From: Nocardioides rotundus
GTDB taxonomy: Bacteria > Actinomycetota > Actinomycetes > Propionibacteriales > Nocardioidaceae
Assembly (NCBI RefSeq): GCF_019931675.1
Contig: NZ_CP082922.1
Location: 3,673,001-3,737,000, forward strand
Reading direction: 5' to 3'
Length of the DNA: 64,000 bases
Position 1 is the first letter of the stretch. The number at the start of each line of letters is the position of its first letter. The position numbers and the translations under genes were made by a program. Shown piece after piece: positions 19,156-49,562 of the stretch. The notes under the pieces were generated by a model, which had not been told where the DNA came from, searched no databases, and was given only the letters and a program-made list of their open reading frames with translations.

Positions 19156-20143
19156 CCCCACTCCCCGCTCCCCCTGCTGTGCTCCGGCCGGCGCCGCCAC
19201 CGGCGCCCCCGCGACCGAGGCGGCCCCCGCCCCGTCCCGCGTCCCGTCGCGGGGTGAGCGCAGCACCCGGGGCCAGCGACCGATCCCGGGCGGGGAGTTC
19301 ACCATGGGCGACGCCTTCGGCGAGGGGTACGCCGCCGACGGCGAGGGACCGGCGCACGCGGTCCGGGTCTCGCCGTACCTCGTCGACGAGACGGCAGTGA
19401 CCAACGCCGCCTTCGCGACCTTCGTGAAGGCGACCGGCTATGTCACCGAGGCCGAGCAGCTCGGGCTCTCCGCGGTCTTCCACCTGGCCGCCGAGGCCGC
19501 GCCGGGCGACGTGGTCGGCCGCGCCGACGGCACGCCGTGGTGGCTGGTGGTCAAGGGCGCGGACTGGCGGCACCCGGGCGGGCCGCGCTCCGGCATCGGC
19601 GACCGGCCGCAGCATCCGGTGGTCCAGGTGACCTGGCAGGACGCGCAGGCCTACTGCGCCTGGGCGGGCAAGCGGCTGCCGACCGAGGCGGAGTGGGAGT
19701 ACGCCGCCCGCGGCGGCCTCGCCGGCGCGCGCTTCCCGTGGGGGGATGAGCTGATGGACCGCGGCCGATGGCGGCTGAACATCTTCCAGGGACGCTTCCC
19801 CCAGCACAACACCGCCGAGGACGGCTGGCTCACCACGGCGCCGGTGAAGTCGTTCCGGCCGAACGGCTACGGCCTGCACCAGATGGCGGGGAACGTGTGG
19901 GAGTGGTGCGCGGACCGGTTCTCGCCGACGACGTACGCCGACCGCGCCGCCTCCGCGCCGGTCACCGACCCGGTGGCGCCGGGCAGCGACGCGTCCGGTG
20001 GCGAGGTCCTGCGGGTGATGCGGGGCGGGTCGTATCTGTGCCACGACTCCTACTGTCACCGGTACCGGGTCGCCGCCCGGTCGGCCAACACCGCCGAGTC
20101 CGCCTCGGGCAACCTCGGGTTCCGCTGCGCCAACGACGCCTGA
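19139..20143 (+). CDS. formylglycine-generating enzyme (SUMF1/FGE family)
   Basis: A 334-aa protein that oxidises the active-site cysteine of type I sulfatases to formylglycine. Recognised features are GGEFTMGD at the domain start, the KRLPTEAEWEYAARGG and NVWEWCADRF motifs, and GGSYLCHDSYCHRYRVAARS. The last contains the copper-binding cysteine pair with the same five-residue offset as in the Streptomyces enzyme. The GTG at 19139 lies inside the end of the sulfatase gene. The first 45 residues are Pro/Ala-rich and may be unstructured. The neighbouring sulfatase is the obvious client. Confidence 0.93.
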   Translation: MSPSPDPTPRSPCCAPAGAATGAPATEAAPAPSRVPSRGERSTRGQRPIPGGEFTMGDAFGEGYAADGEGPAHAVRVSPYLVDETAVTNAAFATFVKATGYVTEAEQLGLSAVFHLAAEAAPGDVVGRADGTPWWLVVKGADWRHPGGPRSGIGDRPQHPVVQVTWQDAQAYCAWAGKRLPTEAEWEYAARGGLAGARFPWGDELMDRGRWRLNIFQGRFPQHNTAEDGWLTTAPVKSFRPNGYGLHQMAGNVWEWCADRFSPTTYADRAASAPVTDPVAPGSDASGGEVLRVMRGGSYLCHDSYCHRYRVAARSANTAESASGNLGFRCANDA

Positions 20144-20151
20144 GACGCGCC

Positions 20152-20281
20152 CCTCGGCCGTCGAGCCTCCCCCCGGTGGTCGAGCCTCCCCTCGGTGGTC
20201 GAGCCTCCCCTCGGTGGTCGAGCCTCCCCTCGGTGGTCGAGCCTCCCCTCGGTGGTCGAGCCTCCCCTCGGTGGTCGAGCC
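20152..20281. repeat. tandem array of 19-bp units
   Basis: Six consecutive copies of GGTGGTCGAGCCTCCCCTC-like units follow a degenerate leading copy, with an exact 19-bp period. They begin nine bases after the FGE stop. The last copy runs into a fuller palindromic form (GGTCGAGCCTGTCGAGACC) that opens the next array. This looks like slippage expansion of one half of a palindromic extragenic element. There are no spacers, so it is not a CRISPR. Confidence 0.9.
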
Positions 20282-20435
20282 TGTCGAGACCACCCACGCG
20301 CCGGTCGAACCCCTTCGGTGGTCGAGCCCGTCGAGACCACCCACGCGCCGGTCGAACCCCTTCGGTGGTCGAGCCCGTCGAGACCACCCACGCGCCGGTC
20401 GAACCCCTTCGGTGGTCGAGCCCGTCGAGACCACA
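20282..20435. repeat. tandem array of three 47-bp units
   Basis: Three near-identical 47-bp units (20282-20328, 20329-20375, 20376-20422) and a partial fourth. Each contains the inverted pair GGTGGTC and GACCACC separated by about eleven bases, plus the filler CACGCGCCGGTCGAACC. The array ends 43 bases before the TOPRIM gene. Elements of the GGTCGAGCxxGTCGAGACC type are, to my knowledge, common between genes of Nocardioides and related actinobacteria; the amplification is local. Confidence 0.88.
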
Positions 20436-20477
20436 ACCCGATGGACGCCCACCGGCCGGCTTGGCAGGCTCGCCGGT

Positions 20478-21029
20478 ATGCCGGTGGTGATCCTGGTCGA
20501 AGGCCGCAGCGATGCCGTGGTGGTGGAGCACCTCCTCCTCGACCAGTGCGTGCGAGCGCGCGTCCTCGCGATCGGCGGCGTCACCAACTTCGCGCGCGAG
20601 CTCGCCCGCAACGCGTGTGACGGTACGACGATCCTCGGGCTGGTCGACGGCGGCGAGGTCGGGATCCTGCTCCGCGCGGTCCGGCGGCGCGGGTGGGACG
20701 TGCCCGGTGCGGAGGCGCTGGGGACCCACGGCTTCTTCGTCTGTGAGAGCGATCTGGAGGACGAGCTGATCCGGGCGCTGGGCACCGACACTGTGCTGGA
20801 CGCGGTCGACCAGCTCGGCGAGCTGGCCCGCTTCCATACCCTGCAGCGGCAGCCCGAGTGGCGCGACCGACCGGTGGCCGATCAGCTGCATCGGTTCGCC
20901 GGGTCGGGCTCGGGGCGCAAGGAGCGGCTGGCCCGCGCGCTCGCCGTACGCCTCTCTCCCGCGACCACGCCGCCACCCCTCGCCGCCCTGCTCGCCGCCG
21001 CAGGCCGATGCCCACCCGAGGACACCTAG
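20478..21029 (+). CDS. stand-alone TOPRIM-domain protein, OLD-like
   Basis: A 183-aa protein. The start of a TOPRIM fold is visible as VVILVEGRSDAVVVEHL, with the conserved Glu8 and E-G-x-x-D spacing. LGLVDGGE follows, with Asp57 at the metal site but Gly in place of the usual second Asp. FFVCESDLEDELIRAL and SGSGRKERLARALA then recall motifs after the TOPRIM core in OLD-family nucleases. There is no ATPase domain and none next to it. It may be a nuclease fragment-type protein or an RNA/DNA-processing enzyme; only the fold is supported. Confidence 0.65.
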   Translation: MPVVILVEGRSDAVVVEHLLLDQCVRARVLAIGGVTNFARELARNACDGTTILGLVDGGEVGILLRAVRRRGWDVPGAEALGTHGFFVCESDLEDELIRALGTDTVLDAVDQLGELARFHTLQRQPEWRDRPVADQLHRFAGSGSGRKERLARALAVRLSPATTPPPLAALLAAAGRCPPEDT

Positions 21030-21046: not shown

Positions 21047-21093
21047 GACCGTGTGGGATCGGGGTCATCTGATGGCTCCGATCCCACACGGTC
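21047..21093. terminator. 47-nt hairpin with conserved base and loop (copy A)
   Basis: An 18-bp stem (one G-T pair) around the 11-nt loop TCATCTGATGG. The stem base is GACCGTG/CACGGTC. It lies between the convergent TOPRIM and AMP nucleosidase genes, 18 bases after the former's stop, so it probably ends transcription from both sides. Length, stem base and loop are identical to the hairpin at 48498-48544, while the middle eleven pairs differ. There is no T-tract on either side. Confidence 0.75.
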
Positions 21094-21292: not shown

Positions 21293-22789
21293 CTACTGGA
21301 AGGCGGTCTCCTCGAAGCTGCGCAGCTTGCGGGAGTGCAGCCGGTCGGGCTGCATCGCGGCCAGCTTCTCCAGCGCCCGCAGGCCGATCCGCAGATGCTG
21401 CGAGACCTGCCGCTGGTAGAACTCCGAGGCCATGCCGGGCAGCTTGAGCTCGCCGTGCAGCGGGCGGTCCGAGACGCAGAGCAGCGTGCCGTAGGGCACC
21501 CGGAAGCGGAAGCCGTTCGCCGCGATCGCCGCCGACTCCATGTCCAGCGCGACGGCGCGCGACTGGGAGAGCCGGCGGATCGGGCCGCTGGTCGCCTGCA
21601 GCTCCCAGTTGCGGTTGTCGGTGGAGGCGACGGTGCCGGTGCGCATGATCCGCTTCAGCTCCCAGTCGTCCAGCCCGGTCACCTCGGCGACCGACTCCTC
21701 CAGGGCCACCTGGACCTCGGCGAGCGCCGGGATGGGCACCCACACCGGCAGGTCGTCGTCGAGCACGTGGTCCTCGCGGACGTAGGCGTGAGCCAGCACG
21801 TAGTCACCGAGCTGCTGGGTGTTCCGCAGCCCCGCGCAGTGCCCCAGCATCAGCCACACGTGCGGCCGCAGCACGGCGACGTGGTCGGTGATCGTCTTCG
21901 CGTTCGACGGGCCGACGCCGATGTTGACCAGCGTGATGCCGCTGTGGTCGGGACGGGTGAGGTGGTACGCCGGCATCTGCGGCTCGCGCGCCGGGGGCTC
22001 GCCGGTCGTCGTCCCCTCGGCCAGGGTGACCATGCCGCCCTGGGTCCCCGGCTCGACGAACGACTCGAAGCCCCCGCCGCCGTCGGCCATCAGCTCCCGG
22101 GCGAAGTCGCGGAACTCGTCGACGTAGAAGCCGTAGTTGGTGAACAGCACGTGGTTCTGGAAGTGCTCGGGCTTGGTGGCGGTGTAGTGCGCCAGCCGCT
22201 GCAGCGAGTAGTCGATCCGCGGCGCGGTGAACGGCGCGAGCGGCGCCGGCTCGCCGGCCTGCGCCTCGAAGGTTCCGTTGACGATCTCGTCCTCGGTGGA
22301 CTCCAGGTCGGGCACGTCGAAGAAGTCCGGCAGCGGCCGCCCGAGCTCGCTCAGCGCGGCCCCGCTCACCCACTGGTCGCCACGCACCGCGAAGTGGATC
22401 GGGATCGGCGTCCGCGACTCCCCCACCACCACGGGGATGTCGTGGATGTCCATCAGCCGCTCGAGCTGCTCGGCCAGGTAGGCGTCGAACAGCTCGGGCC
22501 GGGTGACCGTGGTGCTGTAGGTGCCCGGCGCCGGCAGGTGCCCGAACGCGCGCCGCGGGTCCACCTGCCCCGACACCGACGTCGCCACGGTGATCTCGGG
22601 GTAGAACGCGCCGAACCGGTGGTCGGGCTCGGCCTCGCCCGCGGCCAGCGAGGCGAGGGAGTCCCGCAGATAGGCGGTGTTGCGGTCGTAGATCTCCTGC
22701 AGCGCACCGATCGCCTCGCGCGCGTCGGTGAAGCTGCGCGCCTCGACGGGCGGCGGCGTCTGGACGGGCAGGGAGGACGCGTCGGTCAT
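21293..22789 (-). CDS. amn: AMP nucleosidase
   Basis: A 498-aa enzyme that splits AMP into adenine and ribose-5-phosphate. The N-terminal regulatory domain is followed by a phosphorylase-like catalytic domain, with ITLVNIGVGPSNAKTITDHVAVL, WLMLGHCAGLRNTQQLGDYVLA and AVALDMESAAIAANGFRFRVPYG. The DMES signature is shared with nucleoside phosphorylases. The ATG at 22789 gives the expected family length; the upstream open frame overlaps the hydrolase gene on the same strand and is not coding here. The gene probably follows the hydrolase/patatin pair in one transcript. Confidence 0.92.
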   Translation of the reverse strand: MTDASSLPVQTPPPVEARSFTDAREAIGALQEIYDRNTAYLRDSLASLAAGEAEPDHRFGAFYPEITVATSVSGQVDPRRAFGHLPAPGTYSTTVTRPELFDAYLAEQLERLMDIHDIPVVVGESRTPIPIHFAVRGDQWVSGAALSELGRPLPDFFDVPDLESTEDEIVNGTFEAQAGEPAPLAPFTAPRIDYSLQRLAHYTATKPEHFQNHVLFTNYGFYVDEFRDFARELMADGGGGFESFVEPGTQGGMVTLAEGTTTGEPPAREPQMPAYHLTRPDHSGITLVNIGVGPSNAKTITDHVAVLRPHVWLMLGHCAGLRNTQQLGDYVLAHAYVREDHVLDDDLPVWVPIPALAEVQVALEESVAEVTGLDDWELKRIMRTGTVASTDNRNWELQATSGPIRRLSQSRAVALDMESAAIAANGFRFRVPYGTLLCVSDRPLHGELKLPGMASEFYQRQVSQHLRIGLRALEKLAAMQPDRLHSRKLRSFEETAFQ

Positions 22790-46672: not shown

Positions 46673-47833
46673 ATGAGCGACAACCCGATCCAGCTCGGCA
46701 TCTTCTCCGTCGGCGACGTGACGACCGATCCCACGAACGGACGGACGCCCACCGAGCACGAGCGGATCAAGAACACCGTCGAGATCGCGAAGAAGGCCGA
46801 CGAGATCGGCCTGGACGTCTTCGCCACCGGTGAGCACCACAACCCGCCGTTCGCTGCTCCGGCGAACCCCCCGGTGCTGCTGGCCCACCTGGCGGCACTG
46901 ACCGAGCGGCTGATCCTCACCACCTCCACCACCCTGATCACGACCAACGACCCGGTCCGGATCGCGGAGGACTACGACTACCTCCAGCACCTGGCCGACG
47001 GCCGGATGGACATCATGCTCGGCCGCGGCAACACCGGCCCGGTGTATCCGTGGTTCGGCGAGGACATCCGCCAGGCGATCCCGCTGACGGTGGAGAAGTA
47101 CGCCCTGCTCCGCAAGCTGTGGTCTGAGGACGTCGTGGACTGGGAGGGCGAGTTCCGCAGCCCGCTGCACGGCTTCACCCTCACGCCGCAGCCCCTGGAC
47201 GGTGTACCCCCCTTCGTCTGGCACGGCTCCATCCGCACCCCGGAGATCGCCGAGCTGGCCGCGTTCTACGGCGACGGATTCTTCTCCAACCACATCTTCT
47301 GGCCGGCCTCGCACACCGCGCGGATGGTGCAGCTCTACCGCCGCCGGTTCGCGCACTACGGCCACGGCACCGAGAAGCAGGCGATCGTCGGCCTGGGCGG
47401 CCAGATCTTCATGCGGAAGAACAGCCAGGACGCGGTCAACGAGTTCCGGCCCTACTTCGACAACGCCCCGGTCTATGGCCACGGCCCGTCGCTGGAGGAC
47501 TTCAGCGCGGCCACGCCACTCACCGTGGGCTCGCCGCAGCAGGTGCTGGAGCGGACCCTGTCGTTCCGGGAGTACGTCGGCGACTACCAGCGCCAGCTCT
47601 TCCTGATCGACCACGCCGGCCTGCCGCTGAAGACGGTGCTGGAGCAGCTGGACCTGCTCGGCGAGATCCTTCCCGACCTGCGGGCCGGCTTCGCCGAGGG
47701 CCGCGACCCCGAGGCAGCGGCCGCCCCGACGCACGCGAGCATGGTGGAGGCGGCCCGGAAGAAGGCCGAGGCCGCCGACGAGTCCGAGGTGCTGGCCGGT
47801 GCCGGCTCCTCCGGAGAGGAGAGCAATGACTGA
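46673..47833 (+). CDS. LLM-class flavin-dependent oxidoreductase (CE1758 type)
   Basis: A 386-aa luciferase-like monooxygenase. The family opening [20 protein letters not shown] is followed by [20 protein letters not shown] and [20 protein letters not shown], typical of F420/FMN-binding barrels. Start 46673 was chosen because homologues begin a few residues before LGIF; ATG 46646 is possible. The last eight bases overlap the FMN-reductase gene. Such pairs are common in actinobacteria: the reductase supplies reduced flavin. The substrate is unknown. Confidence 0.88.
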
Positions 47834-48443
47834 CCTGGTGATCGTCAGCGGAGGGCTGCGCGAGCCGTCCTCCACCCGGCTGCTGGCCGACCGGCTGGCC
47901 GCCGCCACCACCCGGGCGCTGGCCGAGGAGGGCCGCGATGCCTCCACCACCGTGGTGGAGCTGCGGCCCCTGGCCCGCGACATCGCCGACGCGATGACCG
48001 CCGGCTTCGCGCCGGAGCGGCTGGAGGAGGCCTTCGAGACCGTCGGCTCGGCCGACGGGGTGATCGCGGTGACGCCCGCGTTCAACGCCTCCTTCGGCGG
48101 GCTCTTCAAGAGCTTCTTCGACGTGCTGCCGGAGGAGACCCTGCACGACATGCCGGTGCTGATCGGCGCGACCGGCGGGACCGACCGGCACTCGCTGGTG
48201 CTGGAGCACGCGCTGCGGCCGATGTTCTCCTACCTGCACGCGATCGTCTCGCCGACGGCCGTCTACGCCTCGACCGACGACTTCGGCGGCTCCGGCGACG
48301 GGGAGGCGCTCAACCGGCGGGTCGCCCGGGCGGCGTCCGACTACGCCCGGCTGCTCACCTCGTGCGGGCGCCGTATTCGTCCCGACGCCTTCACCGAGGA
48401 GCTGGACTCGATGACCGCGCTTCTCAACTCCGGGCGCGGCTGA
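47826..48443 (+). CDS. NADPH-dependent FMN reductase (CE1759 family)
   Basis: A 205-aa flavodoxin-like protein: LVIVSGGLREPSSTRLLADR at the FMN-phosphate loop, VIAVTPAFNASFGGLFKSFF in the central FMN-binding strand, and LIGATGGTDRHSLVLEHAL. These match the CE1759 family that accompanies the CE1758 LLM enzyme. It would reduce FMN with NAD(P)H for its upstream partner, to which it is coupled by an eight-base overlap. It ends at the convergent hairpin B. Confidence 0.9.
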   Translation: MTDLVIVSGGLREPSSTRLLADRLAAATTRALAEEGRDASTTVVELRPLARDIADAMTAGFAPERLEEAFETVGSADGVIAVTPAFNASFGGLFKSFFDVLPEETLHDMPVLIGATGGTDRHSLVLEHALRPMFSYLHAIVSPTAVYASTDDFGGSGDGEALNRRVARAASDYARLLTSCGRRIRPDAFTEELDSMTALLNSGRG

Positions 48444-48497: not shown

Positions 48498-48544
48498 GAC
48501 CGTGAAGCCGGTGAGTCATCTGATGGCTCACCGGCTTCACGGTC
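48498..48544. terminator. 47-nt hairpin with conserved base and loop (copy B)
   Basis: A perfect 18-bp stem around TCATCTGATGG, between the convergent FMN-reductase and saccharopine-dehydrogenase-like genes (stop at 48552). The stem base GACCGTG/CACGGTC, loop and total length equal those of the hairpin at 21047-21093. The middle eleven pairs (AAGCCGGTGAG here) differ from copy A but remain fully paired. Bidirectional termination is the likely job. Confidence 0.75.
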
Positions 48545-48551
48545 CCCCGGG

Positions 48552-49562
48552 TCAGCGGGTGTGGCGGCGGAACTCCTCGACCGCGGTGACCCAGGCGCCC
48601 GAGCGGGCGTCGAGGTCGGCGATCAGCGGGGTGAGCTCGGCGGAGAAGGACTCGCTCGCCTCGCGCGGGAGCAGCGAGGGCAGGTTGTCGATCGCGATCA
48701 CGTCCAGCGGCGGGTCGTCGGCGACGCGACGGACCGGCTCGTCCCAGGAGGTCACCGCGGAGTTCACCGGGATCAGGTTGAGGTCGGAGGTGACGTCGTT
48801 GGTGACGTCGGAGACCACGCGCAGCCGGCGCTCGGCGGCCAGATCCTGGTCGCGGACGAACGGCTCGGCGGGGACCCGGGTGACCACGCAGTTGACGAGC
48901 ACGTCGTGGGCGAGCAGCGCGTCGTGGTCCAGGTTGCGGGTGTCGTTGACGTCCCACCCGGTCACCTCGGCGCCGGCCACCTCCAGCGCCTCCACCGCGC
49001 CCCGGCCGCTGCGGCCGCGGAAGCCGGTGACCAGGGCCCGGACGGGCGAGGCGTCGGCCGCGAGCACGCCGTCGAGCGTGGGCTTGTCGGTCGGCGTCAC
49101 CGGCGCCTCCAGCGAGCCCCGGGCGGCGAGCACCGCGAGCGCAGCGCCCATGTAGCCGGCCCAGCGGCCGAACGCCACGACCCGGCGGCCCTCGAGGGTG
49201 AGGTACTCCACGTCCAGCAGCTGGCCCCCGCCCCGGGCGAAGCGGTCGAGCAGCTCCTCCGCCCCGTCCTGCCCCTTGAAGGCGTGGGCGAAGTAGATGT
49301 GGACGTGCCGCAGCTCGGCGGGCTCGTCGGGCAGCTCCTTGATCCCGACGACGTAGGCGTCCTCGGGCGCGTCCACCCAGGAGCCGGCGGGAGCGGTGGC
49401 GCACCCGGCGGCGACGTACTCCTCGATCCCGAAGACCCGGTACGGCGACTCCTCGACCGTGACGCTCACCCCGTCGGCCACCAGGCGGGCGGCGTCCGCG
49501 GGGACGATCGGCGTGCGCTGCTCGGTCGGCCGCGCCTCCGCGCGGATCCACAGATGGGTCAT
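48552..49562 (-). CDS. saccharopine dehydrogenase-like protein (LYS1/alanine dehydrogenase fold)
   Basis: A 336-aa protein. The N-terminal domain (HLWIRAEARPTEQRTPIVPA, ADGVSVTVEESPYRVF) is the AlaDH/PNT-N fold found in fungal LYS1, which makes lysine from saccharopine with NAD+. A Rossmann segment follows (ALVTGFRGRSGRGAVEALEV). The Lys and His active-site pair of LYS1 may be represented by GIKELPDE and YFAHAFKGQ. No lysine-degradation neighbours are present, so substrate assignment is tentative. Confidence 0.85.
   Translation of the reverse strand: MTHLWIRAEARPTEQRTPIVPADAARLVADGVSVTVEESPYRVFGIEEYVAAGCATAPAGSWVDAPEDAYVVGIKELPDEPAELRHVHIYFAHAFKGQDGAEELLDRFARGGGQLLDVEYLTLEGRRVVAFGRWAGYMGAALAVLAARGSLEAPVTPTDKPTLDGVLAADASPVRALVTGFRGRSGRGAVEALEVAGAEVTGWDVNDTRNLDHDALLAHDVLVNCVVTRVPAEPFVRDQDLAAERRLRVVSDVTNDVTSDLNLIPVNSAVTSWDEPVRRVADDPPLDVIAIDNLPSLLPREASESFSAELTPLIADLDARSGAWVTAVEEFRRHTR

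Follow-up and report, generated by a model that had tools for sequence, protein, structure and literature searches.

We analysed a 64,000-nucleotide stretch of the Nocardioides rotundus genome (the window), which carries two 47-nt hairpins, copy A at 21047..21093 (+ strand; arms 21047-21064 and 21076-21093, centre 21065-21075) and copy B at 48498..48544 (+ strand; arms 48498-48515 and 48527-48544, centre 48516-48526). These hairpins are probably solo ends of a small hairpin-bounded nuclease cassette, belonging to a mobile family that resembles repetitive extragenic palindromes (REPs) and their RAYT proteins, with a palindrome-binding homing-type nuclease replacing the HUH transposase. The cassette itself and the association of the hairpins with its gene are well supported.

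Hairpins flank a nuclease-like gene

The genome of the window (G000; Nocardioides, 4.09 Mb, single contig) contains a cassette outside the window, at G000:C1:176931-178070, which consists of a palindrome, one gene and a second palindrome. The left palindrome is of the copy A type, and the right palindrome, which overlaps the end of the reading frame, is of the copy B type. In the simplest account of the sequences, the mid-stem variants of copies A and B would correspond to the left and right ends of a single cassette. Both variants are also found solo elsewhere, and the two window copies appear to be such solo ends. Four hairpin pairs, 1.03-1.09 kb apart (in G000, G012, G017 and G023), were each found around one gene of the same family, and the hairpin-bounded interval contained a single gene in all four cassettes read. 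G000 has a second core gene copy, which is considered in the Discussion, and a third, more distant one. In another genome (G003:C1:519428-519807; L047, L055), a hairpin pair about 0.3 kb apart surrounds a fragment of the nuclease gene, which looks like an internally deleted copy similar to a miniature inverted-repeat transposable element.

With G000 and distant subfamilies counted, the gene profile matched 35 of 39 genomes, and the protein family gave 1699 matches among 8000 candidates scored. For the core loci, 51 of 54 were used, and three partial or contig-end loci were left out. Palindromes scoring 14-15/15 were present in 43 of 102 flanks of these loci versus 1 of 612 control windows, and with a threshold of at least 12/15 the counts were 65/102 and 55/612. 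The named loci were the best 80 of 290, chosen by protein motif alone, from Nocardioidaceae, Gordonia and Mycobacterium/Mycolicibacterium, and 78 of them had enough flank. Palindromes of at least 12/15 were found on both flanks in 35 of the 78, on one flank in 34 and on neither in 9, and in 194 of 1530 control windows. Among other genes in the same loci, 1 of 82 had a palindrome on both flanks, versus 35 of 78 for the nuclease-like gene.

The left and right hairpins of a locus also resembled each other. When each left hairpin was compared with the 78 right hairpins, the best match was its own partner in 37 of 78 loci, and in 27 of the 35 loci with two strong hairpins, which indicated that the hairpins are locus-specific. 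The stems were then compared position by position in 28 of the 35 loci in which both hairpins scored at least 12/15; even-centred pairs and pairs with fewer than 24 of 47 positions alike were dropped, so this set favours likeness. This comparison showed the same base pair at stem positions 5-9 in 24-28 of the 28 left/right pairs and at position 18 in 27, and drift at positions 10-17, where most changes affected one side and each position had 0-4 pairs compensated on both sides. Selection for a structure whose base and near-loop parts stay constant while its mid-stem drifts and remains paired, which had been proposed from copies A and B alone, is supported by these 28 pairs. The mid-stem keeps its complementarity and not its sequence, which suggests that the arms pair with each other at some step, as a cruciform, a single-stranded hairpin or RNA. 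The cassette-encoded protein is a candidate for recognising the constant parts.

A second hairpin type, GCGGT...ACCGC, was represented by 14 hairpins that were selected by their shared anchors and all had 45 nt between them. Both-sided changes were seen in 15 of 21 pairs, and 92.9% of cells paired, compared with 72% in shuffles. Hairpins of this type occurred in 21 of 96 genomes, with cassette ends counted in. Some cassettes also have another, shorter palindrome type beside the main hairpin on both sides (L158, L174, L154 and L205, and G066 after miaB); its order is inverted in L158 and L174 and direct in L205.

In the distant subfamily, palindromes of at least 12/15 were found in 13 of 28 flanks versus 15 of 168 control windows (14 of 15 loci), and some loci had clear hairpin pairs (L119, L120). 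The hairpins of three members (L121, L124 and L276; G068) are of the GTCATACG...CGTATGAC type, and G068 also has a hairpin like this type standing solo after miaB. In a sample of the phylum, homologues were found in 13 of 198 genomes at E<=1e-30, G000 included. A Spearman correlation of 0.31 (n=2452) between protein and hairpin similarity, taken over loci whose flanks were labelled unlike, was not relied on, because "unlike" was wrongly labelled in some pairs (L142/L181).

Predicted fold of the cassette protein

The cassette product is predicted to be a single chain with an N-terminal AbiEi-antitoxin fold and a C-terminal fold of the Vsr/I-Bth0305I catalytic-domain type. Residues 8-313 of the model were placed on AbiEi and Vsr-type folds by VIA-align 2, starting from a Foldseek ranking, and folds outside that ranking could be missed. 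Among 73 members, Pfam found no Y1_Tnp (HUH transposase) at E<=0.01 and NCBIfam gave no match. A profile search against PDB sequences returned a single match with an E of 0.8, which was discarded as meaningless. Sequence evidence indicated that the gene is under purifying selection.

Structure and genomic distribution of the hairpins

The sequence-only reading of this DNA had described copies A and B as sharing the base GACCGTG/CACGGTC and the centre TCATCTGATGG, with mid-stems that differ yet stay paired. Both descriptions were correct, with one G.T pair in copy A, at stem position 17 (21063/21077). The pattern GACCGTG-N20..40-CACGGTC matched twice in the window, compared with a mean of 0.05 in dinucleotide shuffles, and 0 of 100 shuffles reached two matches. 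The predicted folding energies of the strand as written were -42 and -42.5 kcal/mol, and none of 200 shuffles of either hairpin folded as well. The 11-nt "loop" of that reading is CATC-T-GATG, which pairs with itself, so the predicted fold has 22 pairs and a 3-nt loop. A search of the window against Rfam with gathering thresholds gave no family.

The exact 11-base centre occurred 12 times in G000, versus 0 for a reversed-pattern control, and all 12 occurrences were within the same 47-nt hairpin. A covariance model (R1) built from these 12 hairpins gave 21 distinct places in G000 at E<=0.01 (150 of 3693 first-look candidates scored). Copy A was the top match in the genome, and the place at 2199676 was better fitted by the second hairpin type. 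In near relatives the R1 matches were patchy (14 of 39 genomes, G000 included). Hairpins of the copy B type lie at 1396787, 1864187, 2719593 and 3721498 in G000; the last is copy B itself, and all of its 47 nt are identical to the copy at G000:C1:1396787-1396833. The 12 exact-centre hairpins comprised 11 distinct sequences, in which 91.4% of cells paired, compared with 83.1% in shuffles, and 7 of the 18 stem pairs showed both-sided changes.

Gene context was determined with a simple codon-usage caller for 20 of the 21 places; the right end of the cassette, at 178024, was left out. Further copies do exist in the genome, and none of the 20 placed copies was inside a called gene, which is the opposite of the two outcomes that the sequence-only reading had named as refuting it. 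The neighbours were tandem at 10 places, convergent at 7, divergent at 2 and unassigned at 1. For comparison, convergent pairs make up 10 of the 52 gene pairs of the window, where intergenic DNA amounts to 7147 of 64000 bases. Against this baseline, the 7 convergent cases among 19 places with both neighbours called mean that a location between convergent genes is at most a tendency.

The pair next to the centre (positions 19/29) was T.G in 16 of 18 G000 hairpins (L013-L030) and T-A in 2, which means that the two strands are not equivalent. A tie between this T.G pair and mismatch recognition by Vsr was considered but left aside as speculative, because the corresponding pair is T-A in other hairpin types. 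In G017 (C1:226794-226899) and G012 (C1:1996036-1996152), two hairpins of unlike type lie within about 120 nt, and by analogy these are perhaps dimers like those described for REPs.

Both window copies do lie between convergent genes according to the gene calls. The gene to the left of copy A (20412..21029, +; codon-usage gene call and open reading frame list) stops 17 nt from the hairpin, and the gene to its right (21293..22789, -; the same two sources) has its stop facing the hairpin and presumably encodes an AMP-nucleosidase-like product, judging by its sequence. It had 0 matches at E<=1e-80 in 95 other genomes and may be acquired. GC-rich repeated segments at 20056-20500 were seen as repeated peptides across overlapping reading frames. 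Copy B lies between a called gene on the + strand (47826..48443; stop 54 nt from the hairpin), whose product we take to be FMN-reductase-like, and one on the - strand (48552..49562; stop 7 nt from the hairpin), whose product we take to be saccharopine-dehydrogenase-like.

Occupied sites, empty sites and orientation

The spacer downstream of a gene that, from its sequence, we take to be miaB was inspected in 55 Nocardioides genomes. A core cassette was present in 12 of them, six in each orientation relative to miaB, and one genome had a distant-type gene. The other 42 had no clear gene, and G013 and G054 gave weak matches of 19.8 and 13.4 bits. Of these 42 genomes, 32 had no palindrome of at least 12/15 within 300 nt and 10 had one or more, most of them looking like ordinary terminators. 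The G021 spacer had a hairpin of the type that forms the right end of the cassette found there in N. sediminis. In G044 two facing stop codons were 26 nt apart with no hairpin, and the left flank matched an occupied locus at 88% identity over 2.4 kb.

A tree of 128 proteins requires 8 changes of site label; from its well-supported branches, a minimum of 4 changes follows for one miaB orientation and of 3 for the other. L165 and L172, which have opposite orientations at the miaB site, are sister proteins with a support of 100. At a second site the orientation of the cassette was opposite in N. albidus and N. carbamazepini. The ends of the N. furvisabuli (G007) cassette are inverted repeats with 86% identity over 80 nt, and G059 has terminal inverted repeats with 81% identity over 73 nt; the ends of G000-type cassettes share the palindrome only. 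A solo in an N. furvisabuli spacer, common to N. lacusdianchii, was 80% identical over 87 nt to one cassette end. The aligned spacer in G294, G022 and G059 did not contain this solo, and G058 had in the same spacer a hairpin-like sequence that by eye was of another type. Taken as sequence comparisons, these data on occupancy, orientation, inverted repeats and solos are consistent with a unit that can insert, invert and be lost. They do not indicate the responsible enzyme, and some of them could be due to homologous recombination that replaced the content of a permissive spacer.

Discussion

We consider it probable that the hairpins are solo ends of the nuclease cassette, and its working might be as follows. 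A chain with AbiEi-like and Vsr-like parts whose gene lies between palindromes of about 22+3+22 nt points to two molecules on two arms, so the AbiEi-like parts of two molecules would bind the two 22-bp arms of a palindrome. This part would read the constant base and near-loop pairs, either as duplex or as an extruded or single-stranded hairpin, and the nuclease part would make a break at the palindrome or in an unoccupied target site. Its repair could then copy the cassette or one of its ends into an intergenic spacer, often close to the 3' end of a gene, and recombination between two like ends could invert or delete the gene, leaving a solo. The wider proposal would be a new class of bacterial mobile element, in which an antitoxin-type palindrome binder joined to a homing-type nuclease carries its own gene from one intergenic spacer to another and does the same in trans for bare hairpin ends; it would be REP-like with hydrolytic nuclease chemistry, and with recognition split between the constant stem base and the near-loop pairs so that the mid-stem is free to drift while paired. 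We put this wider proposal forward tentatively, with chances a little short of even.

Several observations weigh against a mobile cassette with solo ends. Only one flank of the second core gene copy in G000 carries a hairpin, and among the named loci there were the 34 one-sided and 9 hairpin-free cases. In homologues from other Actinomycetota, palindromes of at least 12/15 were found in 7 of 32 flanks versus 14 of 160 control windows, and no locus had hairpins on both flanks (16 of 21 loci had flanks long enough to score). One comparison of an empty with an occupied site, made by eye, showed no target-site duplication. An empty site for copy B was not found, since the saccharopine-dehydrogenase-like gene was next to the FMN-reductase-like gene in 0 of 29 other loci, nor one for copy A, whose AMP-nucleosidase-like neighbour was present only in G000 among 96 genomes at the same threshold as above. 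Strain-level gain of a solo was not seen in any species. Binding, cutting and movement of the ends by the cassette protein are steps that we infer, and this counts on the same side.

Other explanations have to be weighed with these points. The gene might only regulate itself without active movement. In this view the 5' palindrome would be an AbiEi-type operator composed of two inverted half-sites, the 3' one would act as a second site or terminator, and the solos would be further places where the protein binds or remnants of cassettes since lost. According to PMC7319586, AbiEi controls its own promoter through a pair of 23-bp inverted repeats with a 3-bp gap, which is close to the 22+3+22 arrangement here, and in most loci the 5' palindrome lies about 65-115 nt ahead of the matched start, as an operator would. 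But autoregulation leaves the matching palindrome behind the gene unexplained, as well as the presence of both orientations and of absence at one site, and most G000 solos are near gene 3' ends, with divergent neighbours at only 2 of 19 places, so we regard it as unlikely. Slightly less likely still is that REP-like palindromes are moved by another enzyme (RAYT or a host recombination pathway) and that the nuclease gene is either carried as a passenger or has been domesticated as a palindrome cleaner. Solos do outnumber cassettes in G000 (21 hairpin places versus 2 core gene copies), and REP families without a dedicated transposase are reported in PMC3733652, but the two ends of a gene are alike and unlike the ends of other genes, which is expected of cognate pairs.

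The sequence-only reading had preferred a class of bidirectional terminators, and such elements, or RNA hairpins of 3' ends, that had by chance been copied close to a nuclease gene family would agree with the strong predicted RNA folds, the many copies near 3' ends and the convergent share given above. However, no T-run follows any of the 12 exact-centre copies in G000, unlike the U-tract of an intrinsic terminator, copies also lie between tandem and divergent genes, and locus-specific hairpins bracket one gene family on both flanks far more often than other genes in the same loci. This explanation is very improbable and a plain terminator class agrees poorly with the data, although the hairpins may still have a side role in termination or act as terminators without a U-tract.

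The solo-end cassette that we prefer has its closest parallels among REPs, which in PMC3733652 and PMC8266576 are described as a palindrome-bounded gene with dispersed extragenic solos, mostly between tandem or convergent genes near 3' ends. Like the REP/RAYT systems (TnpA-REP and REPtrons, including RAYT with long terminal inverted repeats), the system here has a gene with cognate palindromes and dispersed extragenic solos. But its enzyme has predicted AbiEi and Vsr-like folds and is not an HUH (Y1) transposase, its palindromes are 47 nt long compared with 20-40 bp in REPs, and beside the G000 hairpins, whose flanks vary, there is no constant unpaired GTAG or CGTC tag of the REPtron type. Terminal inverted repeats, as in N. 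furvisabuli and G059, are shared with insertion sequences.

The predicted Vsr-like catalytic fold is shared with free-standing EDxHD/Vsr-like homing endonucleases such as I-Bth0305I, which dimerises on a target of nearly 60 bp according to PMC3943268. Occupied and empty alleles of a cassette site were seen here. Homing genes of the I-Bth0305I type differ from the cassette, which has gene-matched terminal palindromes, solo ends and an AbiEi-like binding part. The predicted AbiEi fold is that of the antitoxin of the type IV AbiE toxin-antitoxin system, but here it is fused to a nuclease-like part, and each of the four cassettes read has a single gene. To our knowledge, a palindrome-bounded cassette is no part of the systems of Vsr mismatch endonucleases, DUF559 proteins or TnsA. 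We found no description of such a cassette in the literature, with partial coverage that was judged by title and abstract opening, and the novelty of the system lies in this pairing of enzyme and repeat. If movement driven by the protein were disproved, the cassette would be an unusual regulatory or homing arrangement. If the proposal is true, it suggests a role for a large family whose members now go by the names "AbiEi family antitoxin domain-containing", "very-short-patch-repair endonuclease" or "hypothetical". The enzyme is a common basis for classifying mobile elements, and a dispersed palindrome family with a dedicated Vsr/homing-type nuclease and an antitoxin fold would then add a class to those now recognised.
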